Shown here in pieces: positions 15,546-22,796 of a DNA stretch of 51,026 nt. The translations under genes and the position numbers were made by a program. Source of the DNA: Patescibacteria group bacterium (GTDB lineage Bacteria > Patescibacteriota > Patescibacteriia > Patescibacteriales > UBA12465). Every line of letters begins with the position of its first letter. Position 1 is the first letter of the stretch. Under the pieces are notes generated by a model. The model did not search any database and was not told where the DNA came from. It saw only the letters and a list, made by a program, of their open reading frames with translations. The stretch lies in contig JAQUWT010000008.1 in the NCBI GenBank assembly GCA_028692765.1, forward strand, positions 1 to 51,026, given 5' to 3'.

Positions 15546-16994
15546 TTAACAATTGAATAATTCCCGGGTAGCGCAGCGGTAGCGCAGTTGGCTGTTAACC
15601 AATTGGTCGTGGGTTCGAATCCCACCCCGGGAGCCAGAGTTCAAATCGTGACGTTTAAAGAGGGCTGCAAAGCCTTCTTTTGCGTTAAAATTAGCTATTT
15701 CTTTGTTGTATATAGTGAGTTCGGAAAACACTTGTGTAGCTATTTCGTGCTTTTCGGTATCAAGTGCGTGTTCGTAGTAAACATTAGCCATTTTTACGAG
15801 TTCGGAAAAAGTTACGATATACTTTAACATTTCACCGGCAGCCTCCTTATGAGCGGCTGTTTTTTCGTCTATAAGTTCCAGTTCATCATTTAATCTTTTT
15901 TCATCCTTGCCAATTTCTTCAATCGTCATCGTGCCATTACGGAGTAAGCTGATTTTGTTTTTTGTAATATAATTCAAGTCTGCATAAATTCGTTTGCGCT
16001 CATTATTTAGATTATCCAATTCTTTTTCTCGTTTAGTAGAGATATTGTCCAACTCGAATTTGGCCCGTGCTTCAATTTCAATTTTTTCTTCATCAGTAAA
16101 ATGGATCAAACCTAAAATATCCCGGACCTTTTCGTGGATCAAGCTTTCATTTATATTTTTGTGATTGTTTTGACAGTTATCCAAACAACGAGATCGATAA
16201 TAATTTATCCCTTTCTTTTGATATGGAGAATATGATCTCCCACATTCGCATTTGATCAAATTACGGTAAGTAAAAAAATCTTTATCAACATAATGCACTC
16301 CCACGTTTTTTGATTTTAATACAGCTTGAACTTTATTAAATAAAGCAGTATCAATAAGGGCTTGATGGGTGCCGTCAATGTATTCACCAGTTTTTCGATT
16401 AACTTTTAACTTGCCGATATAAAATGGGTTAGTTAAGATATTTTCAATTGTTTTATTATTTACCGGACGGCTAACTTTTTTTATTTCATCTATTTCAACA
16501 CCATTTAACAATTCCTGTTTAGTTCGATTTCTTCTTGTTGGTTTAGTTGTTAAACCTTGCTTATTAGCCCATCTGGCTAATTGGAATAAGCTCCATTCTC
16601 CCGTGGCATAAAGTTGAAAAATCCTGACAATAATATAAGCTCTTTCTGGATCAATTGGTTTATTACCCGACCCTTCATCAAGATAGCCAATCGGGGCCAT
16701 ATAAATACATTTACCTTCGGATCTTAACTTTTCAGCCGCAGCTTTAACTTTTTCACTTATCACTCTTGAATAATGGGCCGAGAACATACCGTCTATGTCT
16801 CTATGTAGAGCTCCGGAGCTGCTTTTCTCATATCTCGCTTGAACGAATTGAATATCAGCACCTTTATCCATCAATTCCTTTATTATAAATCCATCCTGCT
16901 CATTACGACTGATCCTGTCCCAGCATAGGCAAATTAAGCCCTTAAACTCTTTATTTAAGAGCTTTTGGACCATAACTTGAAATTTGGGCCGTTC
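15546..16994 (-). pseudogene. Large serine recombinase, N-terminally truncated, reading antisense through tRNA-Asn
   Basis: Homology begins at ERPKFQVMVQKLLN, just downstream of an in-frame TGA (17004-17006), and the first ATG is at 16973. The N-terminal 60-70 residues with the catalytic serine are therefore missing, while the later DRISRNEQDG motif, the recombinase domain (IGYLDEGSGNKPIDPERAYI ... FYIGKLKVNRKTG), the zinc ribbon (IKCECGRSYSPYQKKG) and a coiled coil remain. The last roughly 30 residues (GGIRTHDQLVNSQLRYRC) are the antisense of the tRNA gene, so the native C-terminus was replaced at integration. Probably inactive remnant of the integrase that brought in the island. Confidence 0.85.
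15562..15636 (+). tRNA. tRNA-Asn (anticodon GTT), CCA encoded
   Basis: The acceptor stem is TCCCGGG (15562-15568) with CCCGGGA (15626-15632), discriminator G and an encoded CCA. The T arm is GTGGG-TTCGAAT-CCCAC and the anticodon loop is CTGTTAA, giving anticodon GTT. The D arm GCGC-AGCGGTA-GCGC is complete. The AT-rich accessory island begins immediately downstream, and an antisense recombinase frame runs through the whole tRNA, so this gene is the likely integration target. Confidence 0.96.
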
Positions 16995-17431
16995 AATCTT
17001 ATATCAAGATAGTATTGTCCCTTACCTTTTCTAAGCATTGTCTCGTCAGATTTGTTGCCGTCAATTGACACTGCCGGTATACCGCCGTTACTTTCAAGTG
17101 TAGTTCCTTCTTTCATAACATAAACCATACAAAGGGAGTAATCTCCGCCAGTGGTTTTATAAATAATTTTTTGTTGGCCACCTTGAAGATTAAAGGCCTT
17201 AGTTTGTTTTTCTGAGTTGGCAGTAATTTTAAAAACCGAAGTCCACACCTTTTCTTTTGGTTGTTCTGTCTGAACAGTCTCTTGTTGGTCATTGTTTGTG
17301 TTTGCTGTGTTGGGAGTGGATTTATTTTCTCCTCCCAGTGCATTGCCGATAATGATAATGGCAAAGATGATAATGATGACCGAGAGAATTTTGTGTTTCT
17401 TGGCCCATTCCGTGAGTTTGTTTTGGCTCAT
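16955..17431 (-). CDS. Membrane-anchored extracytoplasmic protein, probably 3'-truncated
   Basis: Starts MSQNKLTEWAKKHK, followed by one transmembrane helix (ILSVIIIIFAIIIIGNAL), a Ser/Thr/Asn-rich linker and a small beta-rich domain (VWTSVFKITANSEKQTKAF ... SLCMVYVMKEG). After GKGQYYLDI the last 14 residues (RLNGPNFKLWSKSS) are encoded by recombinase-derived DNA in another frame, so the original C-terminus appears lost at the same junction that truncated the recombinase. The frame is open further upstream, but that part lies inside a structured element, so I use the ATG at 17431. Function unknown. Confidence 0.65.
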   Translation of the reverse strand: MSQNKLTEWAKKHKILSVIIIIFAIIIIGNALGGENKSTPNTANTNNDQQETVQTEQPKEKVWTSVFKITANSEKQTKAFNLQGGQQKIIYKTTGGDYSLCMVYVMKEGTTLESNGGIPAVSIDGNKSDETMLRKGKGQYYLDIRLNGPNFKLWSKSS

Positions 17432-17463
17432 AGATTTTTTATTTAGTTTATAAAATATCAACT

Positions 17464-17619
17464 TGCCCAACAAAAAAGGGCAGTCAACCTGACTACCCAC
17501 TGTTAGCAATAGCACGAAGCTACCGTTTTGCGGAGGTCAACTGCCCATTTCTGGCCGTAAAACGGCAAGACTAAGCAGTCTTTTCATGCTTTTTATTGCT
17601 AACAAATTGTAGGTAGTCA
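17464..17619 (-). ncRNA. Structured, pseudoknot-forming element with terminator-like end
   Basis: Nested and crossing complementarity: 17490-17497 with 17612-17619 (8 bp) and 17501-17511 with 17594-17604 (11 bp, perfect); 17522-17533 with 17555-17566 (12 positions, one mismatch, one wobble); hairpin AAGACT/AGTCTT at 17567-17582; and 17478-17489 with 17535-17546 (12 positions, two G-U), which crosses the long helix and makes a pseudoknot. On the minus strand the last helix ends in a T run (TGCCCTTTTTTG), like an intrinsic terminator, and TGCCC can also pair with GGGCA (hairpin 17464-17482). It sits just upstream of the minus-strand membrane protein gene. A cis-regulatory leader or an independent small RNA are both possible; the plus strand cannot be excluded. 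Confidence 0.55.
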
Positions 17620-17666
17620 TTTATAATTTAACACTAATCTTTCAAAAAATCAACTTGACCAAATGG

Positions 17667-17727: not shown

Positions 17728-18891
17728 ATGGCGAAGATTGTTGAAACAAAATTAAAGCAAAAGGTTGTATCTATCCTTACTAAACAAGGCTATGTTGTTA
17801 ATAGTAAAGGTTTTGTTTTAAAAGATGATAGCAGAGAAGTAAAGAGAGACGCTCATGTTTTTGCAAAAGCTGAAAGAATAAGTAAAAGTGAGAAATTTAT
17901 TACCGATAACATCGATTTAATAAGTCAGTATATGGTTGACGGAAAGAATTTAGATATCGCAAAGATTGATCCTCAGATTATAGAGGTAAAAACTGGATCA
18001 AAGTATGAAAAGATTTTTCGTTGGTGGAATTTAGTGTGGTGGAGTCTTCCTTATGAAAGGGCTTATGGAAGACAAATGCGTTTTGTAATTTGGGATCGTT
18101 TTCATAAGGCCCCCATCGGCCTTATTGGTTTACAAAGCCCTATTTTGAGTTGGAGTATTAGAGATAGTTATCTTGGTATAACTAAAGAAAAAAGAGACTA
18201 TTGGGTTAATCAATCATTGAGTGCGCAGAGGTTGGGTGCTTTGCCGCCATATAATTACATTTTAGGAGGAAAGTTGATCGCATCTTTAATGACCGCTGCA
18301 GTTATAAGGAAAAAATTTGAAAATAAATATAAGGGTCAAAAAACTATAATAAAAAATAGAAAATTGCCATCAAAATTATTATTTATTACAACAACGGGAG
18401 CCTACGGGAAAAGTAGTGTTTATAATAGACTTAAATTTAATGATGACTATATTTCTAAGTTTATTGGTTATACCCATGGGAGTGGATCCTTTCATATTCC
18501 GAATAATATTTATGAAGATTTTTTAATATATTTAAAGGATAAAGATTATGATATAAAGAGAGGATACGGCGCTGGGCCATCAAGGAAGTTGCGTTTAATA
18601 AATCAAGCAATGGAGTGTTTAGGAATATCAAATGGCACCAACCATGGTATTAAAAGGGCTATATATTTATTTCCCTTGGCCAAGAATTTAAAATCGGTAA
18701 TATCAGATAATGAAAAACCAAAATGGTTTGATAGAAATATTAAAGATTTGACTTCATTTTGGCGGGAAAGATGGGCTATGCCAAGATCAGAAAAACACAA
18801 AGAATATCTCGGTTTTTGTGCGGATAAATTTATAAAAGATACTATAGATGAGATAGGGAAATATAAAAAATTACATAACAGTGCAAAGTAA
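17728..18891 (+). CDS. DUF4338 / DruA-like protein
   Basis: Recognisable DUF4338 pattern in order: RWWNLVWWSLPYERAYGRQM, FHKAPIGLIGLQSPI, YWVNQSLSAQRLGALPPYNY, then FITTTGAYGKSSVYNRLKF, FIGYTHGSGSFHIPNNIYED, GAGPSRKLRLI and HGIKRAIYLFPLAKN. DUF4338 is the domain of DruA in type I Druantia anti-phage systems, whose molecular role is not settled; nucleic-acid cleavage or binding is often suspected. The Druantia helicase DruE is not present in this window. At 387 residues it looks complete. AT-rich codon use differs from the core genes. The NurA-like gene begins 2 bases after its stop. Confidence 0.85.
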   Translation: MAKIVETKLKQKVVSILTKQGYVVNSKGFVLKDDSREVKRDAHVFAKAERISKSEKFITDNIDLISQYMVDGKNLDIAKIDPQIIEVKTGSKYEKIFRWWNLVWWSLPYERAYGRQMRFVIWDRFHKAPIGLIGLQSPILSWSIRDSYLGITKEKRDYWVNQSLSAQRLGALPPYNYILGGKLIASLMTAAVIRKKFENKYKGQKTIIKNRKLPSKLLFITTTGAYGKSSVYNRLKFNDDYISKFIGYTHGSGSFHIPNNIYEDFLIYLKDKDYDIKRGYGAGPSRKLRLINQAMECLGISNGTNHGIKRAIYLFPLAKNLKSVISDNEKPKWFDRNIKDLTSFWRERWAMPRSEKHKEYLGFCADKFIKDTIDEIGKYKKLHNSAK

Positions 18892-18893
18892 AT

Positions 18894-20096
18894 ATGGATC
18901 AGCAAAACAAAAATTCTAATTACGCTTTTTTGCCAGATGATTTGTTGATGAAAATGTTGGATAAAGTTCCTGATACCGTTGGAAAAATGAACGGTATGTT
19001 TGATGTCCAGGACGAACCAATAAAGAAAGGCATAGAGGAGTTAAAAAATAAGGGGCTGATAAACAAAATAACAAGCAAAGAACATACTACTTCCTTAATC
19101 GCTGTAGACGGGAGTAATATTGTAGAAAAAATGACAGGAACAGACATTTTGCTTGCAATGGGTGTCGGCGTAGAAGGATTAACTAATGGAGAAACTGTTG
19201 GATGGGAAGACAATAAAAATCAGTATTATCAATGGCAAACTGTTTTACCTCACGGAGATGCAAATGCGAGGTTAATTCAAGGAATAATGTTTCTAATGGA
19301 GTTGAGTGTATTAGCTCATGCAAGCCATGAAGTTAGAATAATGGACGGCAATCACATGACTCCTATCTTAAAAATAAATAGCATGTTAAGCGCCAAGGAT
19401 GAAAATGCTGGTCCTGAATACTGCTCTGCTTTAACGGAATTTTTAAAAGAAACATATAATAAAATAATTCCTGATATTCCAGATATCGTATCAGCTGCCT
19501 TTAGTAATGAAAATATTGTAGCTATGGTTAAATATAGTTCCTCTCGGGATATACTTGAAAGCCACCTAAAAGATCATAAGGATATTAGGGTTGATGATAA
19601 AACTTTTTTTTCTCTTGGCCTTGCCCAAGACGAATATACCAAGCCATTATCCGTTGGACAGAGTAAAGATGAAAATAGAATATGGGGTGATCTTCATATA
19701 AAATGTAATTTAGATGCCATAAAGGAAAAAGATGAGTTGAATAAGGAATTTAAAAAGGTGTTGGAAAAAATAAAGACCAAGGATTATAAAGGGAGGTCCA
19801 AAGAGTCGGAAATATATTTTACATATTATAAACCATATGATGATGGACCGGCTTACAGGATTGAAATAAAAAAAGGGATAGCAAATAATCTTCCTAAATT
19901 GGAAAAATATCTTTTAAGCATAAAAAACCAAATAGTTTTCCCAGAAATTAGAGAACCTTATCCTCAGTATTTAGTAGATTTGATGGCCAAGAGTATCGCC
20001 ATGGGTCTTTTTTCAATTCAAGAAGCCATTCGTTTGTCTCCTGATTTAAAAATTGATCGAGGCAAATTTAATTTATTGTTTAATTATAGAACATAA
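18894..20096 (+). CDS. NurA-like 5'-3' nuclease
   Basis: NurA family nucleases form toroids that dock on HerA hexamers and resect DNA ends. The hallmark acidic motifs are visible: LIAVDGSN (catalytic Asp near residue 71) and the second one in VRIMDGNHMTPIL near residue 150. C-terminal segments PQYLVDLMAKSIAMGLFSIQ are also in keeping with the family. At 400 residues it is within range. The gene is tightly placed between the DUF4338 gene (2-base gap) and the HerA-like gene (13-base gap). Assignment rests on motif pattern plus the HerA neighbour. Confidence 0.8.
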   Translation: MDQQNKNSNYAFLPDDLLMKMLDKVPDTVGKMNGMFDVQDEPIKKGIEELKNKGLINKITSKEHTTSLIAVDGSNIVEKMTGTDILLAMGVGVEGLTNGETVGWEDNKNQYYQWQTVLPHGDANARLIQGIMFLMELSVLAHASHEVRIMDGNHMTPILKINSMLSAKDENAGPEYCSALTEFLKETYNKIIPDIPDIVSAAFSNENIVAMVKYSSSRDILESHLKDHKDIRVDDKTFFSLGLAQDEYTKPLSVGQSKDENRIWGDLHIKCNLDAIKEKDELNKEFKKVLEKIKTKDYKGRSKESEIYFTYYKPYDDGPAYRIEIKKGIANNLPKLEKYLLSIKNQIVFPEIREPYPQYLVDLMAKSIAMGLFSIQEAIRLSPDLKIDRGKFNLLFNYRT

Positions 20097-20109
20097 TTTT
20101 TATAAAAAT

Positions 20110-21906
20110 ATGTCAGATAAAATAAATTTTTCAAAAGAAATAATTGATGTAATTGCTAAACAGGATTCAACTATTGGTATTACTGGATCGCCAAGTACAA
20201 CTCTTGATATTGAAATTGATATTACGGAGGATAAAAAAACTGAAAGGGCTTTAGGGCAGATGGTTTTTGTTATGTTGAATGAGGACGGTAAAGATGTTTT
20301 AGTTATCGGACAAATAATATCCGTTGAAACTCAAAACAGATGGCACGAAGACCCATCATTTAAAGGTGTTATAAAAAGACATGGTAAGCTGCCGCATTTA
20401 AGCGGAACGGCAGATAATAGAATAGCAACAATTAGCGTACAGGCATGTTATGCGCTTGATGCCAATGAACCCATGGGTCATATTTTAGGAACATCGCCGT
20501 CTACAGGTGAAAATGTAAAAAAAATGAACAATGATGTTATGAAGGCTTTAGTAAAGAAACACGAAAAACATATAACTTATATGGGGAAAGTTTACGGAAC
20601 TGATGTTGATTTACCTTTATGGTTTAAACATTTTGACAAAACTAATAACGATGAGCTCGGCGCTAATGATGCGTACCATATAGGGGTGTTTGGTAAAACA
20701 GGCTCGGGTAAAACAGTGACAGCAAGTTATATGTTACTTGGATATACAAAAAATAAAAATAATTTGAGTGTCTTAGTTCTTGATCCCCAGGGGCAATTTT
20801 ATAATGACAAAGATTTATTGCCACCAAGAGGCCAAAAATTTGAGGATAGGGTAAAAGCAAGTGGAATGAACTTTAATAAATATGAAATAACAAAAGATGT
20901 ATATTTGCCAGGTGATAAATATGAGCTGTTTGGTGAATTATTGCAAAATAATAAATTTTTAGAGGAGGCGTTTAGACCGTTATATACAGAGGATAAAATT
21001 GAGGCTGCTAAGAATGTTATAGTTGATTATCTAAGAGGGAGATCAAATAAGCCCGGATTTAATTTAGGCAGCATAACGGACAGTAAAAAGTTATTAGAAG
21101 AAATGTTAAAAAGATTTTTAGAGGTGAAAGATGATGAGGAGAAAAAAATCGGTTTTTCAAAATATGTATATGGAATATTTGGAACTAAGGAGACAAGAAC
21201 GAGATTGCAATCAAGAATCAAATCTATTAGTGAAAATATAGATAGGCAAACCGGTATTTTGTCTAAATGGAATAATGCCTTGTACTTGTTTACACAAAAG
21301 AAAGAAGATAATACTAACAAGGTGTCGGTAGATGATATTGTGGACAAGATAGTAAACAATAATGGTAATTTTGTGGTTCTTGATTTAAGTCCCAAAAAAG
21401 GAGAAATAGAGAATGAAAATTTGCAGGCTTTATTTGTTAGTATAATTGAGTCAAAAATTGTTGAGGTTGGGGCGGATTTGTTTGCAAAGGGCGAGAAGGC
21501 AAATTGTTTGATAGTTTTAGACGAAGCGCATAGATTTATTTCCAAAGAGTCATCTGATCCAAGAATTAAGGAATTTACTAAGGAAATAATCGGCTCGGTT
21601 AGAACGACCAGAAAATATGGCATTGGTTATATGTTTATTACACAAACAATAGAGTCTTTAGATAATGAAATTTTAAATCAAATGAGAATATTTTCATTTG
21701 GCTATGGTTTGACTTCGGGATCTGAATTAAGAAAAGTTAGCGAAGTTATAAACAATAAATCAGCTGTTCAGCTTTATAAATCATTTATTGATCCAAGCAG
21801 TAATAACAGATTTCCTTTTATGTTCTTTGGTCCAATATCTCCTTTGTCGTTTACAGGATCACCTTTGTTTATGGAGGTTTACGGGGATATTTCAATGTTT
21901 AGTTAA
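20110..21906 (+). CDS. HerA-like FtsK/HerA-clade ATPase
   Basis: A 598-residue AAA+/RecA-like motor that forms hexamers and pumps DNA. It has an N-terminal HAS-type beta barrel (residues about 15-110, AVIGQIISVET-like strands), Walker A FGKTGSGKTVTAS near residue 195, Walker B CLIVLDEAHRFI near residue 470, a sensor/arginine-finger region SVRTTRKYGIGYMFITQT and a C-terminal brace. The frame is open upstream to 20053 but that part overlaps the NurA gene; the ATG at 20110 gives a clean 13-base gap. With NurA it would make a DNA-end-processing complex. Confidence 0.9.
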   Translation: MSDKINFSKEIIDVIAKQDSTIGITGSPSTTLDIEIDITEDKKTERALGQMVFVMLNEDGKDVLVIGQIISVETQNRWHEDPSFKGVIKRHGKLPHLSGTADNRIATISVQACYALDANEPMGHILGTSPSTGENVKKMNNDVMKALVKKHEKHITYMGKVYGTDVDLPLWFKHFDKTNNDELGANDAYHIGVFGKTGSGKTVTASYMLLGYTKNKNNLSVLVLDPQGQFYNDKDLLPPRGQKFEDRVKASGMNFNKYEITKDVYLPGDKYELFGELLQNNKFLEEAFRPLYTEDKIEAAKNVIVDYLRGRSNKPGFNLGSITDSKKLLEEMLKRFLEVKDDEEKKIGFSKYVYGIFGTKETRTRLQSRIKSISENIDRQTGILSKWNNALYLFTQKKEDNTNKVSVDDIVDKIVNNNGNFVVLDLSPKKGEIENENLQALFVSIIESKIVEVGADLFAKGEKANCLIVLDEAHRFISKESSDPRIKEFTKEIIGSVRTTRKYGIGYMFITQTIESLDNEILNQMRIFSFGYGLTSGSELRKVSEVINNKSAVQLYKSFIDPSSNNRFPFMFFGPISPLSFTGSPLFMEVYGDISMFS

Positions 21907-21922
21907 TTGTTAAATTAAAAAT

Positions 21923-22297
21923 ATGAAAAGAGTTTTTATTAGTTTCGCAATCGAAGATAAATATGCCAGAGATCATTTGGCATATCAGGCAAACAATGCA
22001 AAGGTGCCTTTTGAATTTGTTGATATGTCAGTTAAAGAGCCTTGGGATAGTTCCTGGAAAACAAGATGTAGAGAAAGAATTAAGCAGTGTGATGGTGTGA
22101 TTGCTCTGTTAAGTAAAAAAACGAGATTGGCCGATGGCGCTAAATGGGAGATGAAGTGTGCCGTTGAAGAAGGTGTTCCGATAATTGGCGTTCATATTCA
22201 CTCTGATGACAAAGGGCAAATACCTTCTGAACTTGAAGGTAAACGTGTAATTGAGTGGACTTGGGACGGGATAAAGAATTTTATTGATAGATTATAA
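21923..22297 (+). CDS. TIR-like (ThsB / DUF1863-type) protein
   Basis: A stand-alone 124-residue TIR-fold protein. The start KRVFISFAIEDKYARDHLA, the central KTRCRERIKQCDGVIALLSK and KWEMKCAVEEGVPIIGVHI match the ThsB-like TIR proteins that sense phage and make NAD-derived signals in Thoeris systems. Glu76 in AKWEMK is at the position expected for the catalytic glutamate. It begins 16 bases after the HerA gene and is followed after one base by a membrane protein gene, which suggests a sensor-effector pair. No ThsA-type SIR2-SLOG gene is present. Confidence 0.82.
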   Translation: MKRVFISFAIEDKYARDHLAYQANNAKVPFEFVDMSVKEPWDSSWKTRCRERIKQCDGVIALLSKKTRLADGAKWEMKCAVEEGVPIIGVHIHSDDKGQIPSELEGKRVIEWTWDGIKNFIDRL

Positions 22298-22298
22298 T

Positions 22299-22796
22299 AT
22301 GAGCCATAAAGAGTTATTTCAAATTGATAAAACCGTCTACGGCGATAATTACAACGAACACTTGTTGGAGCAGTATAAGCTTTATGTTGAAGGAATAGAA
22401 AAGATAAGCGATCGTCGCCATAATGCAAATAATTATTTTATAACAGTTAACACTGCCATCATAACTCTTATTGGATTATCTTTTAATGTAGATTTTTTAA
22501 AAGATAATAGTTGGATTAGGATTGTAATTGCTTTACTGGGTATTATTATTAGTGTTATATTTTGGTATTTAATTAGAGCTTATAAGCAGTTAAATACTGG
22601 AAAATTTACTGTTATACATAAAATAGAAGAAAGAATGCCATTGTCTCTTTATTCTTACGAATGGGATGTTTTGGGAAACGGAAAGGATAATGAAAAATAC
22701 TATCCATTTTCTCACATAGAACTTATTATCCCTCGGGTGTTTGGAATTTTGTATTTTATATTAGGTATTTTGTTTTTGTTGGGTTGTTTGAAATAA
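22299..22796 (+). CDS. Small membrane protein, likely partner/effector of the TIR protein
   Basis: 165 residues with an N-terminal soluble helix (LLEQYKLYVEGIEKISDRRH), two adjacent transmembrane helices (ANNYFITVNTAIITLIGLSF; IVIALLGIIISVIFWYLI), a cytosolic segment with KFTVIHKIEERMP, and a third helix at the C-terminus. The pattern resembles the RipA-like octameric membrane proteins, but I am not certain of that family. The ATG at 22299, one base after the TIR stop, is preferred over a start 15 bases upstream. By position it is a candidate for a membrane-disrupting effector. It is the last gene of the operon. Confidence 0.72.
   Translation: MSHKELFQIDKTVYGDNYNEHLLEQYKLYVEGIEKISDRRHNANNYFITVNTAIITLIGLSFNVDFLKDNSWIRIVIALLGIIISVIFWYLIRAYKQLNTGKFTVIHKIEERMPLSLYSYEWDVLGNGKDNEKYYPFSHIELIIPRVFGILYFILGILFLLGCLK

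Follow-up and report, generated by a model that had tools for sequence, protein, structure and literature searches.

We predict that a 148-nucleotide (nt) structured RNA from a Patescibacteria group bacterium is the cis-acting leader of the integration-side operon of a mobile element integrated at a tRNA gene, and that its pseudoknot is a terminator stem that limits readthrough into that operon (probability roughly 0.6). The RNA is encoded on the minus strand of contig JAQUWT010000008.1 (assembly GCA_028692765.1), of which 51,026 nt were analysed (the window). It belongs to an RNA class without an Rfam match that we identified in genomes of the Patescibacteria (Candidate Phyla Radiation, CPR). 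The evidence comprises homology, structure, promoter position, a U-tract and gene context; from it we infer termination, control of readthrough, and the setting of the pseudoknot by a protein, a ligand or folding kinetics.

Conserved structure of the RNA class

On the minus strand, positions 17464-17619 fold at -66.9 kcal/mol, compared with a shuffle mean of -40.7 (z -7.2; 0 of 200 shuffles equally low); the plus strand gives a fold z of -5.2. A DNA search of 145 related genomes returned clear matches in a few. Homologues were sought across the phylum with covariance models, starting from the window copy. RNAalifold on alignment A1 (six sequences including the window) favours a hairpin, K, with changes in both arms. 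Model R1 found the element in 13 of 380 genomes of the class. R2, built on 16 aligned members, found it in 15 of 379 genomes of the phylum and in 32 of 111 genomes of the order, and R3, built on 65 members, in 47 of 371 genomes of the class, with five copies in the window's own genome (880 kb). Scanning 60 regions and the window gave a first set of 65 elements from 47 genomes (counted by locus label); 20 further regions gave a second set of 21 elements, which lie outside the R3 alignment. The total is 86 elements in 65 genomes. Five named source contigs are labelled Parcubacteria (two), Falkowbacteria, Paceibacterota and Patescibacteria (one each).

Phage and plasmid DNA was also searched. In IMG/VR, R1 matched nothing at E <= 0.1 in 85 loci obtained with a loose pattern (120 loci), and the co-searched window did match; the best E for R2 in 100 loose-pattern loci (0.9 Mb of phage DNA) was 2.5, and three tighter patterns returned 0 loci. 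Searches by blastn gave just 29-nt Prevotella-phage matches among phages and none among plasmids. With five copies in 880 kb and none in 0.9 Mb of phage DNA, the element is not a general genomic repeat.

The members, about 120 to 150 bases in size, have a common layout: P1, an outer helix whose first base is the predicted transcription start (+1), a helix P2, the hairpin K, a pseudoknot T that joins the K loop to the bases directly after P1, and a U-tract. In the list below, A4 is the alignment of the 65 first-set members.

17472-17619, minus: leader RNA, 148 nt (R2 121.5 bits, E 3.4e-23; R3 99.3 bits)
17648-17653, minus: -35 box TTGATT of the leader promoter, read from the sequence, with a 17-nt spacer to the -10 box
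17625-17630, minus: -10 box TAAATT, 5 nt 5' of the RNA, at the same position in 53 of 65 members
17618, minus: predicted +1, the first P1 base, from the position of the -10 box
17609-17618, minus: P1 5' arm GACUACCUAC (double changes in 14 of 14 P1 pairs on A4)
17491-17500, minus: P1 3' arm GUGGGUAGUC (A4 covariation)
17595-17604, minus: P1 upper extension of the window copy, 5' arm UGUUAGCAAU (window fold)
17501-17510, minus: P1 upper extension of the window copy, 3' arm AUUGCUAACA (window fold)
17583-17590, minus: P2 5' arm AGCAUGAA (double changes in 6 of 6 P2 pairs)
17511-17518, minus: P2 3' arm UUCGUGCU (A4 covariation)
17555-17565, minus: K hairpin 5' arm CCGUUUUACGG (double changes in 11 of 11 K pairs)
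17523-17533, minus: K hairpin 3' arm CCGCAAAACGG (A4 covariation)
17535-17546, minus: T pseudoknot 5' arm GGGCAGUUGACC, within the K loop, inside P1
17478-17489, minus: T 3' arm GGUUGACUGCCC, just outside P1; base of the terminator-like stem
17472-17477, minus: U-tract of six U, directly after T
17572-17580, minus: P3 5' arm GACUGCUUA, which would pair with 17539-17547 in competition for the T 5' arm (window subfamily)
17464-17468, minus: GGGCA, a possible partner of the T 3' arm once readthrough has occurred (p 0.005 in the window)

A preliminary description, made from the window sequence, had noted several long complementary pairs, one crossing another, and six T behind the last helix on the minus strand. 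All of these are present: T (17535-17546 with 17478-17489) crosses P1 (17609-17618 with 17491-17500), forming a pseudoknot, and the six T run from 17477 to 17472.

Alignment A4 (64 distinct rows) was fitted to P1, P2 and K, with T left unpaired in the models, and 40 pairs were scored over P1, P2, K and T. Standard pairs occupy 95.2% of 2413 cells, compared with 64.0% after shuffling. Double changes occur in 37 of the 40 pairs (761 cells vs 218.8 shuffled), and the covariation score is 0.777 vs 0.227 shuffled and at most 0.134 with slid partners. T alone is 94.6% paired (82.1% shuffled), with double changes in six of its nine pairs, and its duplex energy beats shuffled tails (p <= 0.05) in 65/65 members and in 21/21 of the second set. 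The base of T (columns 99-102) is nearly invariant and G-C-rich; covariation sits in columns 103-106. Homologues with covarying pairs, which the preliminary description had named as a check on its structure, were thus found, and the relatives show that the structure is under selection.

Promoter, U-tract and downstream genes

In 53/65 members and in 16/21 of the second set, a -10 hexamer precedes the element by exactly 5 nt, and -35-like hexamers in the 65 members peak at offsets 27/28, i.e., 16-17 nt above the -10. Because the -10 offset is fixed, the first P1 base is the predicted +1; in the window the promoter (17625-17653) is immediately outside the RNA proper. At the other end, the 9 nt after T contain at least five U in 86/86 elements and at least six in 83/86. 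The G-C-rich stem with a U-tract that characterises intrinsic-terminator attenuators is therefore found throughout, given T in 65/65 members and the U count in all 86 elements.

A co-directional open reading frame (ORF) of at least 50 amino acids starts within 160 nt downstream in 59/65 members, so that, as in a cis-acting leader, the covarying structure stands between a predicted promoter and a co-directional gene. Start codons occur as near as 2-5 nt behind the element's aligned end, which leaves no space for another promoter. In many recombinase members the distance is 2-20 nt, and in long-form members it is 14-66 nt. Among the 59 downstream proteins, 20 match Resolvase in Pfam; the other matches are zinc ribbons, DUF2726, an Ltp lipoprotein, a tRNA_anti-like domain, a bacterial PH domain and a DNA methylase. 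Many of the remaining proteins have N-terminal membrane segments (by eye). The same kinds of gene recur behind highly divergent RNAs.

Serine recombinases are frequent neighbours (tblastn): one occurs within 3 kb in 47/65 members, 35 of these within 500 nt, and in 20/21 of the second set. One such recombinase has four matches in the 880 kb of the window's own genome, so by our estimate a nearby recombinase would be expected by chance in a few per cent of cases. Where the recombinase shares 50% identity or more with the own-genome enzyme, 12 of 15 loci have the RNA upstream, compared with 2 of 15 for more distant recombinases; two of the three RNA-less loci among the close ones (L269, L272) start less than 200 nt from a contig start. 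Of the recombinases that lie within 1 kb and run in the same direction as the RNA, 27/36 have a convergent tRNA gene at, or overlapping, their 3' end (14/17 in the second set), which suggests integration at tRNA genes. In many of these recombinases the last codons are read from the tRNA gene. Targeting of tRNA genes is usually credited to tyrosine integrases, as one published abstract states. Long-form elements without the tRNA arrangement often have a divergent serine recombinase some 200 nt away (for example L207, L221, L222, L260).

Other features of these loci were noted. The long-form leaders in L202, L223, L226 and L233 begin about 110-170 nt past the 3' end of a tRNA-Ser gene, a position that is probably an end of an integrated element. 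The gene behind the L233 leader (just downstream of 5609) looks homologous to the bPH_2 gene at L223:6600, but at the position of the L223 start the L233 gene has no ATG. In L254 and L253, of a distant family, a clear Shine-Dalgarno sequence between leader and start codon is seemingly masked by a hairpin, a possible second control step. Five elements carry small ORFs of 66-78 amino acids between leader and recombinase, without a Pfam match in the two of the five that were scanned singly; they are candidates for a directionality factor or a regulator:

L231:6243-6461: small ORF
L234:5963-6196: small ORF
L238:1290-1523: small ORF
L236:5250-5447: small ORF
L214:6156-6374: small ORF

The palindromic character of the element, its position beside recombinases and the fact that two members score on the opposite strand too could point to a hairpin acting as DNA: an attachment site, an attC-like site, a transposon end or a miniature inverted-repeat transposable element (MITE). 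We consider this highly improbable. G-U accounts for 103 of 553 paired T cells, and as DNA pairs G-U poorly, RNA is indicated; moreover, the promoter offset is fixed, the tRNA overlap lies at the recombinase's far end, and flanking repeats are at chance level (4/86 at p <= 0.05). On the last count we rejected a unit mobile as DNA with target-site repeats (MITE), and a near-repeat of 19 nt on either side of the window copy (17452-17470 and 17644-17662) is taken as chance.

Proposed mechanism and competing explanations

We propose that transcription starts at the first P1 base and that P1, P2 and K fold first; once the bases after P1 have emerged, T would form between them and the K loop. Since its nearly invariant, G-C-rich base adjoins the U-tract, T should act as the terminator stem, even though its arms flank the P1 3' arm and have the 3' strands of K, P2 and P1 between them. 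At this point most polymerases would halt, leaving an RNA of roughly 146 nt. Occasional or regulated failure of T would let polymerase enter the gene behind, giving low or regulated expression of a serine recombinase, of a small gene plus recombinase, or of membrane, zinc-ribbon or lipoprotein genes. A protein, a ligand or the kinetics of folding may set T, or readthrough may be simple leakage. Where start codons lie 2-5 nt behind the element, T would additionally block ribosomes.

Such proximity also suits a translational leader in place of a transcriptional one: T would cover the start region, and the U-tract would be of secondary importance. In its favour are the start codons of many recombinase members, 2-20 nt from the element, and the few weak U-tracts. 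Against it, the tract is U-rich in 86/86 elements and the start codon is 14-66 nt away in long-form members; we regard it as quite unlikely.

Several observations weigh against the proposed leader with T as its terminator. U-tracts are weak in some elements (5 of 9 in 3/86; several read ATTT), and in 6/65 members no co-directional ORF of 50 amino acids or more begins within 160 nt. The conserved GGRC/GYCC of T is included in the models, so those pairs are partly conditioned on the search and weigh less; columns 103-106 are free of this. An internal competitor, P3, is found at p <= 0.05 in just 13/65 members, downstream pairing with the T 3' arm at p <= 0.05 in 16/65 (window included), and a GGGC mini-hairpin in 6/65, near chance. 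On these counts none of the three is a competing fold for T common to the class. T could therefore be constitutive, and regulation is a proposal.

These results also bear on the preliminary description, which had seen in the element the logic of a riboswitch or attenuator, or of a small RNA with its own terminator. The predicted promoter, terminator-like end, covariation and co-directional gene agree with that logic, but the alternative pairings are local (P3 13/65, downstream 16/65). Likewise, the proposed pairing of the T 3' arm with a downstream GGGCA holds in the window, where it beats base-shuffled downstream DNA (p 0.005), but not across the class (16/65).

A strict ligand-binding riboswitch, in which a small molecule stabilises T, would be a special case of the leader proposed here. 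The compact pseudoknotted form at +1 before several kinds of gene would suit it, as would the A-rich letters before T and the near-invariant GGRC; since the downstream genes have no metabolic theme and none of the alternative folds looked for is common to the class, we think it unlikely. Sensing of the target tRNA in the manner of a T-box was rejected: pairing with the own tRNA was no better than with swapped tRNAs (p 0.18 for the whole RNA, 0.12 for the anticodon arm, 0.80 for the tRNA 3' part), and no T-box is among the Rfam matches of the window, the element and the loci of 20 relatives.

The complete promoter-to-terminator unit and the several copies per genome could equally describe a stand-alone, trans-acting small RNA beside an incidental or leakage-fed gene; were T constitutive, the RNA would be stable, its 5' end held in P1. 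We judge this rather unlikely, given the co-directional ORF within 160 nt in 59/65 members, some 2-5 nt behind the RNA, and the same gene kinds behind very divergent RNAs. Very unlikely, in our estimation, is a dedicated non-coding component of these tRNA-targeting elements that works in trans on the recombinase or on sister leaders. The RNA of one element would then set the genes for integration and surface proteins in every related element of the cell, a form of RNA immunity in CPR mobile DNA. We favour the cis-acting leader with a pseudoknotted terminator stem.

Window neighbourhood and comparison with described systems

In the window the RNA (17619-17472) is followed by a small membrane gene, a serine recombinase and tRNA-Asn:

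16955-17431, minus: first downstream gene, 158 amino acids, with a membrane segment at the N-terminus (by eye); its ATG is 40 nt behind the RNA
15546-16973, minus: serine recombinase (part of PF00239, and PF07508), lacking about 45-60 N-terminal residues
15562-15636, plus: tRNA-Asn, convergent with and within the recombinase frame; same layout in relatives

The 158-amino-acid protein has no Pfam match at E <= 0.001. By tblastn, 8 of 8 other recombinase queries align to the window enzyme only from their own residue 46-63, and the missing N-terminal part is where the catalytic serine is expected. Given this truncation, the window element is probably no longer self-mobile. No 13-mer of tRNA-Asn recurs elsewhere in the window, where a copy might mark the other attachment end. 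An unusual defence grouping occupies 17728-22796: DruA precedes NurA-like and HerA-like (DUF87) proteins, and behind these come a TIR protein of the ThsB type and an 8xMP membrane protein. The DruA, NurA-like and HerA-like genes lie on the opposite side and are transcribed away from the RNA. The element had been placed between the recombinase side and this defence operon; its position is as described, but it is more exactly the leader of the recombinase side, directed away from the DruA operon.

It had also been said to match no nameable class, and the suggested Rfam search bears this out. Against Rfam 15, just a tRNA reaches a gathering score in the whole window, the best match at the element is SCARNA7 (14.9 bits against a gathering score of 65), and only tRNAs reach gathering scores at the loci of 20 relatives. 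We found no published description of such an RNA in work on CPR RNA motifs and CPR serine recombinases, in a search of partial coverage that did not take in the 2017 list of 224 RNA candidates. The portion available of one review mentions riboswitches solely as tools (PMC11665869).

For the largely uncultured Patescibacteria, the class offers a mechanistic handle on the control of mobile DNA. Should the pseudoknot be the terminator stem, the design would be unusual, a scaffolded long-range helix replacing a simple hairpin. Because most co-directional recombinases behind the RNA run into a convergent tRNA gene, the class marks integrative elements and could be used to find them, their insertion sites and their cargo (here the nearby DruA defence operon).

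Intrinsic-terminator attenuators and pseudoknotted riboswitches (preQ1-I, fluoride, c-di-GMP-II) are 5' leaders with a loop-to-3'-tail pseudoknot, a U-tract and a co-directional gene, all of which the present RNA shares. Unlike them, its long-range pseudoknot helix is itself the proposed terminator stem, and it starts at the predicted +1, with no known ligand or shared antiterminator and without an Rfam match. The phage P4 immunity RNA and c4 antisense RNA bring about early termination via trans RNA-RNA pairing. Transcription control at the RNA level in a mobile element is proposed here too; however, unlike in P4 immunity RNA, the covarying partner lies within the RNA itself. HK022 put RNA is likewise structured and stands at the start of mobile-element transcripts, but it suppresses termination by binding polymerase, whereas the present RNA ends in a terminator-like stem. 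The IS110 bridge RNA is also a structured RNA adjoining a recombinase gene. Here, in contrast, the enzymes match Resolvase/Recombinase, with no IS110 (DEDD) transposase among the Pfam families listed for the 59 downstream proteins (20 of them Resolvase), and no target-tRNA complementarity was found. Nearest in theme, as far as the available part of its description goes, is STAXI (PMC2864571), which consists of two or three repeats of a pseudoknot and occurs near integrase and antirestriction genes. Both are pseudoknotted RNAs near integrase genes; the present RNA, which gave no STAXI match, differs in being one larger structure with a promoter and a U-tract.
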